From Elusimicrobiales bacterium (GTDB lineage: Bacteria; Elusimicrobiota; Elusimicrobia; Elusimicrobiales; UBA9959), in contig JAILAB010000069.1 in the NCBI GenBank assembly GCA_024681855.1, forward strand, positions 1-52,991: 52,991 bases of DNA, in the 5' to 3' direction. The translations under genes and the position numbers were made by a program. Position 1 is the stretch's first letter. Every line of letters begins with the position of its first letter. The notes beneath the pieces are model-generated. The model was given only the letters and a program-made list of their open reading frames with translations, searched no databases and was not told where the DNA came from. This document shows positions 34,961 through 40,828 of the stretch, piece by piece.

Positions 34961-36590
34961 TATTACAAAACATGACCCTGTCGTAGGTTCTGAACCAAAG
35001 ATTAATGGGAAACTGATTTCCCAAAGGACCCTTCAGCAGACTCCGCCAGCCGTAAAGCGTCTGCGCGAAATAAAAGGCAAGGCTCTTGCAGGCGGCCCTC
35101 CCGAAAAAATTGCCGCTCAGCGCGAAAAAGGCAAGCTTACGGCTAGAGAAAGAATAACTTATCTTACAGATGACAATTCTTTTAGGGAAATAGGGCTTCT
35201 AAGGGAAACCAGATGCACTGATTTCGGAATAAAAGACATGCATATTAAAGGCGACGGCGTAATAACCGGTTTTGCCACAATAGACGGAAGGCGCGTGGCC
35301 ATATTTTCGGAAGACTTTACCCAGCTTGGAGGCTCGCTTGGACGCACCCATGCTCAAAAAATAGCCTGCCTGATGAGGCTTGCCAGAAAAGCCAGAACAC
35401 CAATCATCGGTATTTTGGATTCAGGAGGGGCCCGGATACAGGAGGGAGTTGATTCTCTCGACGGTTATGGGGAAATATTTTCCGAAAATGTAAAATGTTC
35501 CGGAATAATTCCGCAGATATCCATAGTCCTTGGCCCATGCGCAGGCGGCGCAGTGTATTCCCCGGCATTAACTGATTTTATTTTCATGGTAAAAGGAATA
35601 AGCCGAATGTTCGTTACAGGGCCAGGAGTGCTTAAAACAGCCACCGGTCAGAACATAGACTTTGAAACGCTTGGAGGAACCGCAGCCCATTCATCAGTTT
35701 CCGGCGTATGCCATTTTGAAGCCAATTCCGAACAGGACTGTTTCAGGCAAGTCCGGGAACTGTTAAATTATCTTCCTTCAAGCAGATGGGAAAATCCTTC
35801 TAAAGTTTCCACAAATGACCCCGAAAACAGACCAGTGCAAATGATGGAAAGAATATGCAATGTGGATTCCCGCAAACCTTACAGAATGCACCATGTTATA
35901 TGGTGGCTTGCAGATGACAATAAATTTTTGGAAGTTCATCACTCTTTCGCAAAGAACTGTGTAATAGGCTTCATACGCCTGGGAGGGTCATCTATCGGAG
36001 TTGTGGCAAACAATCCGGCAGAAAAATCCGGAGCTCTGGACATAAATTCTTCAGACAAAATAGCCCGTTTCATACGCTTCTGCAATAATTTCAATATTCC
36101 GCTGCTTACTCTTGTTGACGTGCCAGGCTTCCTGCCAGGCATGGAACAAGAACATGGAGGGATAATACGCCATGGAGCAAAAATATTATATGCCTATTGC
36201 GAGGCGACTGTGCCTAAGGTAACCTTAATTTTGAGAAAAGCCTATGGCGGCGCATACATAGCGATGAATTCAAAAATGATGAATAGCGACCTTAATTTTG
36301 CCCTGCCTTCAGCAGAAATAGCGGTAATGGGGCCCAGCGGAGCAATCAACACTCTTTATAGCAAGCAGATAAGGGAGGCCAAGCCTGAAGAAAGGGATGC
36401 TCTTTGCGCTAAACTGACAAAAGAATATTCAGACAAATTTGCCTCTCCATACCAGACAGCATCAACCGGCTCTATAGATTCAATAATTGAGCCTTCACAG
36501 TCCAGACAATTCCTTATAGAGGCTTTTAAAATGCTTGAAGGAAAGAGAGTGCCGGGAGAGCATCCTGTTTCCGGCAACATTCCTTTATGA
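34953..36590 (+). CDS. Acyl-CoA carboxylase carboxyltransferase (beta) subunit
   Basis: The 545-residue protein belongs to the PccB/MmdA family, which moves carboxyl groups between biotin and acetyl- or propionyl-CoA. Two crotonase-fold halves are visible. N-terminal: [21 protein letters not shown] and [15 protein letters not shown]-terminal: [26 protein letters not shown] and [14 protein letters not shown]. It could make malonyl-CoA or methylmalonyl-CoA for the PKS; the AT motifs favour malonyl. It could instead be part of a decarboxylase pump. No biotin carboxylase or biotin carrier is encoded here, so partners must lie elsewhere. It overlaps the PPTase by 8 bases and the PTS gene by 4 (ATGA). 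Confidence 0.93.
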
Positions 36591-39500: not shown

Positions 39501-40828
39501 ACCTTCCGCTTATTTTTGCTTTAGGAATCTCATCAGGATTTGCTAAAAACTCACATGGCGCTGCAGTAGTTTCAGCTTTTACCGGATATATCGTTTTCAT
39601 AGCCTCGCTAAATGCCTTAAACCCAGATCTAAACTTAGGAGTTTTCGGGGGAATAATCATTGGCCTTATGGCTGGGAAATGTTATAATCGCTTTAGCACA
39701 ACTCAGTTGCCGCCATATCTGGCGTTTTTCGGCGGGAAAAGGCTTGTGCCAATAATTACTGCCGTAGCTGCGCTGCTTGCAGCCATGCTCTTTTCAGTAA
39801 TATGGCTGCCGGCCCAGAAAGCAATATCCGCTTTTGGAAATCAAATAATAGAAAGCGGAAACATAGGGCTTTTCCTTTATGGCATCGCAAACAGGCTGTT
39901 AATACCCCTTGGCCTGCATCATCTGCTAAACAATCTCGTATGGTTCCAATTCGGAGATTTTATAAATCCTGCTACGCAAGCCATGACACATGGAGACTTG
40001 TGGCGTTTTTTTGCCGGAGATCCGAAAGCTGGAGCTTTTATGTCCGGCTTCTTCCCAATAATGATGTTTGGCCTTCCGGCGGCAGCATTTGCCATGATTG
40101 CTGAAGCAAAAAAAGAAAACAGGAAAACAGCCTATGGCATTCTGGGCTCAGCCGCTTTAACAGCTTTTTTAACTGGCATAACCGAACCTCTGGAATTTTC
40201 ATTCATGTTTCTGGCTTTTCCTTTATATGCATGCCATGCTGTTCTAACAGGACTAAGCCTTGTAATAATGAATATTCTGCATGTGAGGCTAGGCTTCACA
40301 TTTTCAGCTGGGCTTTTTGATTATATTCTTAACTATGGAATAAGCGAAAATCCCTTGCGGCTTATTCCCATAGGCCTGGCATATGCCGCATTATATTATC
40401 TATTGTTCCGTTTTGCCATAAGAAAATTTAATTTCATCACTCTTGGAAGAGAAGAGCACGATGCCATTAAAAAAGATGACATGGCAGCATCAGAAGAATA
40501 TAAAGAAAAGCATGATAAAGAAAGTCAGCCAGTCGGCAAAACTGAAACAGCCAGCCGCATTTGCCATGAAGGAGACAAATGGCTCAAGGCATTGGGAGGG
40601 CAAGAGAATATTCTTGGCATCGGAGCCTGCGCAACCCGCATAAGAATTGAAACTGTATCTAACAATGCTATAGATGAAAAGGCATTGAAAAACCTTGGGG
40701 CTAAAGGCCTTTTAAACAAAATTGAAGGCATGGCACAGGTAATAATCGGGCCAGAGGCTGACCTGCTATGCGATAAAATCAAGGAAGCAATGTCAGTTTC
40801 AGACAGCATCTACGACAATCATGAATAG
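36587..40828 (+). CDS. Single-polypeptide PTS: EIIA-HPr-EI-EIIC-EIIB (GlcNAc type)
   Basis: One uninterrupted 1413-codon frame carries the whole phosphotransferase relay. EIIA: residues 1-155, His65 and His80 (CHIGIDTV), spaced like E. coli EIIA-Glc His75 and His90. HPr: about 185-270, His197 (GIHARPAA). EI: about 304-860, His485 (QSHAS), Cys790 (GICG) and [14 protein letters not shown]: about 920-1288, with the NagE-like features [13 protein letters not shown] and Glu1200 in [12 protein letters not shown]: about 1321-1410, Cys1348 (GACATR). Phosphate would run PEP to EI, HPr, EIIA, EIIB and then the sugar entering through EIIC. The EIIC sequence resembles the GlcNAc permease NagE most, so N-acetylglucosamine is the best guess; glucose is possible. 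EI has GICGTAASD where GICGE is usual. The ATG overlaps the carboxylase stop. Confidence 0.93.

Follow-up and report, generated by a model that had tools for sequence, protein, structure and literature searches.

A Single Elusimicrobiales Open Frame That Appears to Encode a Complete Sugar PTS

The window analyzed here, a 52,991-nucleotide stretch of DNA from a draft Elusimicrobiales genome (G000; 2.0 Mb, ~90% complete), contains a gene that encodes in one unit the five parts of a sugar PTS, which in other bacteria are divided among at least two separate proteins; it seems to be a natural counterpart of an engineered single-chain pump. Very probably, its product is one membrane-anchored chain that carries a full set of components for a PEP-dependent GlcNAc/glucose-class PTS and that derives from a fused nagF and nagE pair. 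This fusion of an entire PTS in one polypeptide is genuine and apparently restricted to a single genus.

Domains and Catalytic Residues of the Fused Gene

The open frame occupies positions 36587-40828 of the forward strand and runs from ATG to stop over 1413 codons (1413 aa), with no internal stop in the translation of the window. A 4.2-kb open frame with seven significant domain matches is not a chance occurrence. The seven Pfam domains, each above its curated cut-off, follow one another from the N- to the C-terminus in the order EIIA, HPr, EI (three domains), EIIC, and EIIB, and the open frame and domain search together bear out the original prediction that all PTS parts lie in one frame in this order.

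The soluble part, encoded like the rest on the forward strand, begins with an EIIA domain of the Glc/GlcNAc type (residues 12-132, positions 36620-36982; PTS_EIIA_1, E = 2.1e-39) bearing the phosphoacceptor His80. It continues with an HPr domain (residues 187-265, positions 37145-37381; PTS-HPr, E = 5.3e-17) bearing His197, with Ser229 as the equivalent of Ser46. The Enzyme I region (residues 309-828, positions 37511-39070) comprises PEP-utilisers_N (309-425), PEP-utilizers (450-517), and PEP-utilizers_C (547-828), scores 433.9 bits with TIGR01417 against a cut-off of 341.7, and matches PDB 2hro (E = 1.7e-96). Within it, His485, Arg590, Arg626, Glu719, Asn742, Arg753, and Cys790 are present, and the alignment with solved EI structures agrees. 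Residues 10-855 are homologous to the NagF-like proteins of two-gene systems, with EIIA(Glc), HPr, and EI in order in one chain; a NagF-type protein would stop after EI, but here EIIC and EIIB continue in frame.

The membrane domain EIIC (residues 933-1222, positions 39383-40252; PTS_EIIC, E = 1.9e-64) contains Glu1200 in a GITEP motif as well as His1111, and its fold matches 8qsr/9lgt. The core of EIIB (residues 1331-1363, positions 40577-40675; PTS_EIIB, E = 8.8e-8) carries Cys1348 within ACATR. With the GITEP glutamate in one domain and the phosphocysteine in the other, this half has the marks of a Glc-class permease, and its alignment with E. coli EIICB(Glc) covers almost the whole length. 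Every phosphoacceptor and EI catalytic residue is thus in place, and His80, His197, His485, Cys790, Glu1200, and Cys1348, computed from the translation, all sit at the positions first proposed for them. Read from its sequence, the protein can be assigned with good confidence a probable function as a PEP-dependent sugar PTS.

Other genes of the window deserve brief description. Upstream of the PTS and in the same direction, positions 27397-36590 encode a protein of 2295 aa that resembles polyketide and fatty-acid synthases (KS-AT-ACPs-KR-DH), then a phosphopantetheinyl transferase and a carboxyltransferase resembling the alpha subunit of methylmalonyl-CoA decarboxylase, the last of which overlaps the PTS start. 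Positions 44928-50527 hold a series of membrane genes of antiporter/complex-I-like character, with two Proton_antipo_M matches and an MbhD-like one, which looks like a portion of an operon for Mrp or a membrane-bound hydrogenase. A 762-aa ankyrin-repeat protein is encoded at 20486-22774, in a small-genome Elusimicrobiales bacterium. On the reverse strand, ARAGORN places a tRNA-Ala(CGC) at 11183-11255, within the start of a 558-aa ORF that matches nothing in Pfam; one of the two, the tRNA or the ORF start, is likely spurious.

The Junction Between the Two Halves

EI ends at about residue 853 and EIIC starts at about residue 930. Between them, a tether of approximately residues 865-910 (positions 39179-39316, forward strand) is predicted to be disordered and occupies the place of the stop codon and ribosome-binding site of two-gene relatives. 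An AlphaFold2 model covering residues 305-1413 is confident for EI and EIICB (mean pLDDT 86), while the 46 residues of the tether (561-606 in model numbering) remain below 50. The modeled EI matches the fold of 2wqd with a target-normalized TM-score of 0.85, and the modeled EIICB matches the E. coli and V. cholerae EIICB structures (8qsr, 9lgt) with scores of 0.88-0.89. The alignment used for the model misplaced the final ~126 residues in the rows that contain EI alone, with the EI and EIICB folds still confident; the pTM is 0.58, and the relative placement of the domains is not to be read from it.

The same five domains occur in one 1378-aa frame in a second species of the genus (G001, a draft genome, 86% complete), whose protein is 54-56% identical to that of the window. 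In the window, the fused gene is preceded by an mmdA-like carboxyltransferase gene (positions 34953-36590, forward strand; Carboxyl_trans, E = 1.6e-168), whose stop overlaps the PTS start in ATGA, and is followed by a gene for a 325-aa protein with weak Sel1-like repeats (positions 40841-41818, forward strand). The second species has the same carboxyltransferase upstream and a similar 323-aa Sel1-like protein downstream, the pairing of carboxyltransferase and PTS being kept. The original prediction had described a charged linker at about 860-920. A linker does join the halves, but the predicted disorder lies at about 865-910 and the charge is not conserved, with 11 K/R and 10 D/E among 66 residues in the window and 7 K/R and 1 D/E among 39 in the second species. 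Such differences in length, charge, and sequence are as expected if the tether acts as a spacer.

An assembly or base-calling error might have merged two truly separate genes, given that most relatives have two genes, several of them with a single in-frame stop at the junction that one wrong base could hide. The fused frame of the second species, open at 54-56% identity and with the same neighbors on both sides, excludes a chimeric join; moreover, in both species a linker of 40-66 residues without a ribosome-binding site replaces the short junction of the relatives, so that a single base error cannot explain the fusion, twice over. An assembly error, named in advance as what could overturn the original prediction, is accordingly set aside as extremely improbable. 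Translation might also restart at the junction, but none of the in-frame starts between the halves of the window's gene has a purine-rich ribosome-binding site and the corresponding stretch of the second species has no in-frame ATG. An internal start was therefore rejected, and one chain is the expected product. The remaining alternative is that the whole frame is translated and then cut within the disordered tether, an ordinary NagF and NagE pair doing the work and the fusion mainly fixing their 1:1 ratio. A 46-residue segment with pLDDT below 50 could attract proteolysis and so yield two proteins of normal size, and because the tether differs between the two species, selection does not seem to maintain any particular linker sequence. 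Nevertheless, cleavage is conjectural, the tether shows no evident cleavage site, a cut would undo the membrane tethering, and a 1:1 ratio is achievable without fusion; we regard cleavage as improbable and continue with the uncleaved chain as the expected form.

Distribution, Origin, and Probable Sugar

The architecture is rare. In 341 genomes of the phylum, searched with a threshold meant to let through mainly near full-length matches, we found the two fused genes, one genome (G099) in which stops separate the halves, and several strong matches of half length to two-gene systems. No other true fusion appeared in the phylum search. About 1,200 sampled proteobacterial genomes (399 from the order of a Paraburkholderia, 401 from that of a Sphingomonas, and 399 from the phylum of a Nitrospirillum) gave no true fusion either, and 80 nagE loci parsed from named genomes included no five-domain fusion. 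All these searches would overlook fused genes that are strongly diverged or have their domains arranged differently. The single full-length matches in G099, G464, and G724 were rejected as fusions on account of stops between the halves, and open frames of 1,300-1,400 aa in many relatives proved, base by base in the fetched loci, to be two genes with an in-frame stop. A 1406-aa frame in the metagenome-assembled Sphingomonas sp. UBA978 (L131:319-4536) has EIIA and EIICB at its opposite ends, whereas EI lies in a different frame; it is probably an indel in a two-gene locus.

Other Elusimicrobiales with clear matches and an inspected junction carry two adjacent genes, nagF (EIIA-HPr-EI) and then nagE (EIICB). 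Many of these junctions, such as TAAGGAGAGTTTATG, consist of one in-frame stop with a ribosome-binding site and an ATG directly after it, and in others the genes overlap or lie in different frames. Since nagB and nagA stand just downstream in the two-gene relatives examined from a sister family (f2), the likely ancestor of the fused gene is a nagF-nagE-nagB-nagA operon. Maximum-likelihood trees built separately for EIICB and for EIIA-HPr-EI both make the two fused genes (L001, L002) sisters, with support of 100/99 and 100/100, respectively, and both nest this pair in an Elusimicrobiales two-gene clade beside L018, L019, and L059 (98/91 for EIICB; 94/92 for EIIA-HPr-EI). The agreement of the half-trees suggests that the fusion probably arose once, through loss of the stop and ribosome-binding site between nagF and nagE, in line with the view, present from the outset, that a NagF-type protein had been joined to a NagE-type one.

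Other members of the window's own family have a different pair that groups elsewhere in the trees and is glucose-type where tested (the EIICB of L058 scores 737 bits with the PtsG model against a cut-off of 647). The simplest reading of the trees is that the genus may have acquired its nagF-nagE pair from the sister family and then fused it once. Branch lengths differ between the halves: in EIIA-HPr-EI, the fused genes have a stem of 0.79 and tips of 0.62-0.70, longer than their two-gene sisters, and in EIICB a shorter stem of 0.42 with tips of 0.34-0.41, as if the soluble half had evolved faster around or after the fusion.

As to the sugar, GlcNAc is our best guess and is held with low confidence. 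The fused permease, the only PF02378 match found in the window's genome, scores 539.6 bits with the nag model (TIGR01998), and its counterpart in the second species 539.7, just below the curated cut-off of 553.2. The choice is uncertain because canonical nagA and nagB were not found: neither draft genome (90% and 86% complete) yielded a canonical NagB (PF01182) or a NagA above cut-off. Candidates for NagA in the window's genome turned out to be imidazolonepropionase, SsnA-like, and hydantoinase-like enzymes. The permease might instead carry glucose or another hexose, its role having shifted within the genus, a reading we consider possible but somewhat unlikely. It would account for the lack of both enzymes in species whose sister-family relatives tested keep both genes downstream, and for nag scores of about 540 bits where those two-gene relatives reach 568.5-583.8. 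Yet the nag model still stands 130 bits above the glucose model (410 bits), the genomes are incomplete, and both species have a SIS protein weakly resembling NagB-II (128-134 bits against a cut-off of 430), which, together with the MurQ present in the window's genome, makes amino-sugar breakdown by other enzymes possible. The NagB-II-like SIS genes (L166:1935-2942 and L169:1456-2466) are related to PDB 8eol and 3hba and adjoin a HAD-like protein; in the window's genome, an imidazolonepropionase-like gene also lies beside the SIS gene.

Predicted Relay and Relation to Known Systems

Established PTS chemistry and the complete active sites together predict a relay from PEP to His485, His197, His80, Cys1348, and the sugar. 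PEP would phosphorylate His485 of EI, from which the phosphate would pass to His197 of HPr, His80 of EIIA, and Cys1348 of EIIB, and finally to the sugar bound in EIIC during its entry into the cell. A point against this relay is that EIIA and EIIB stand at opposite ends of the chain, N- and C-terminal, respectively. Since the folded domains are connected by flexible linkers, which also hold the soluble part to the permease, each transfer would probably stay within one chain or run from one chain of a dimer to the other. Such a machine would have been assembled when the stop and ribosome-binding site separating neighboring nagF and nagE disappeared and a flexible tether was gained.

How far this system stands apart from the rest of the cell is a separate matter. 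Contig C29 of the same genome encodes HprK, a RapZ-like protein, a mannose-family EIIA, EIIB, an EIIC-EIID protein, an HPr, and a 579-aa EI, and the fused HPr retains its serine, Ser229. With a separate HPr, EI, and HPr kinase in the genome and this serine kept, cross-talk is neither shown nor excluded, and the proposed insulation from general PTS regulation is not established. A self-contained natural single-chain PTS, passing phosphate only among its own domains and working as an independent pump without exchange with the HPr, EI, and HprK of the mannose-type PTS, is put forward tentatively, as a rather doubtful reading.

In the textbook account, the PTS is a relay of freely diffusing, shared proteins. 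The closest known system is the two-gene GlcNAc PTS of NagF and NagE, found in Burkholderiales, other Proteobacteria, and most Elusimicrobiales genomes with strong matches, which has the same domains in the same order; the fused system differs in being one polypeptide, with a disordered tether in place of the stop and ribosome-binding site, and in having no nagB or nagA after it. The fused gene is a variant of this pair whose extent is surprising but whose two-gene ancestor is obvious. Multiphosphoryl transfer proteins (FruB/FPr, NagF, and DhaM types) likewise hold EIIA, HPr, and EI in one chain, but the described types contain soluble components only (PMC2405797), whereas the fused protein also includes the permease domains EIIC and EIIB. 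E. coli NagE (EIICBA-Nag) and PtsG (EIICB-Glc) have EIIC and EIIB of the same class; however, NagE has a C-terminal EIIA, and EI and HPr are separate and shared in E. coli, unlike the fused protein in both respects. The engineered E. coli glucose-PTS fusion, reportedly arranged as IICB-IIA-HPr-EI, also brings all PTS subunits into one chain, whereas the Elusimicrobiales protein is natural, starts with the soluble part, and ends with the permease. That "string of enzymes", in which four glucose-PTS subunits were fused, purified, and characterized (Mao, Schunk, Gerber, and Erni 1995, as cited in PMC4996493), is a precedent for making and studying such a chain. In keeping with the original statement that no such system is well described, a natural complete single-chain PTS did not appear in the literature searched, which lacked most subscription papers, so that this negative carries little weight.

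It is a standing question whether the PTS relay runs faster when its parts are tethered or recruited to the membrane. In E. coli, EI binds the GlcNAc permease in a stimulus-dependent manner, and complexes of this kind have been suggested to relieve diffusion limits (PMC4996493). A natural single-chain PTS with close two-gene relatives makes the question of tethering testable, since a single family allows comparison of effective concentration, obligate 1:1 stoichiometry, and the loss of HPr/EI sharing. The fused gene may also serve as a portable, one-gene sugar import module.
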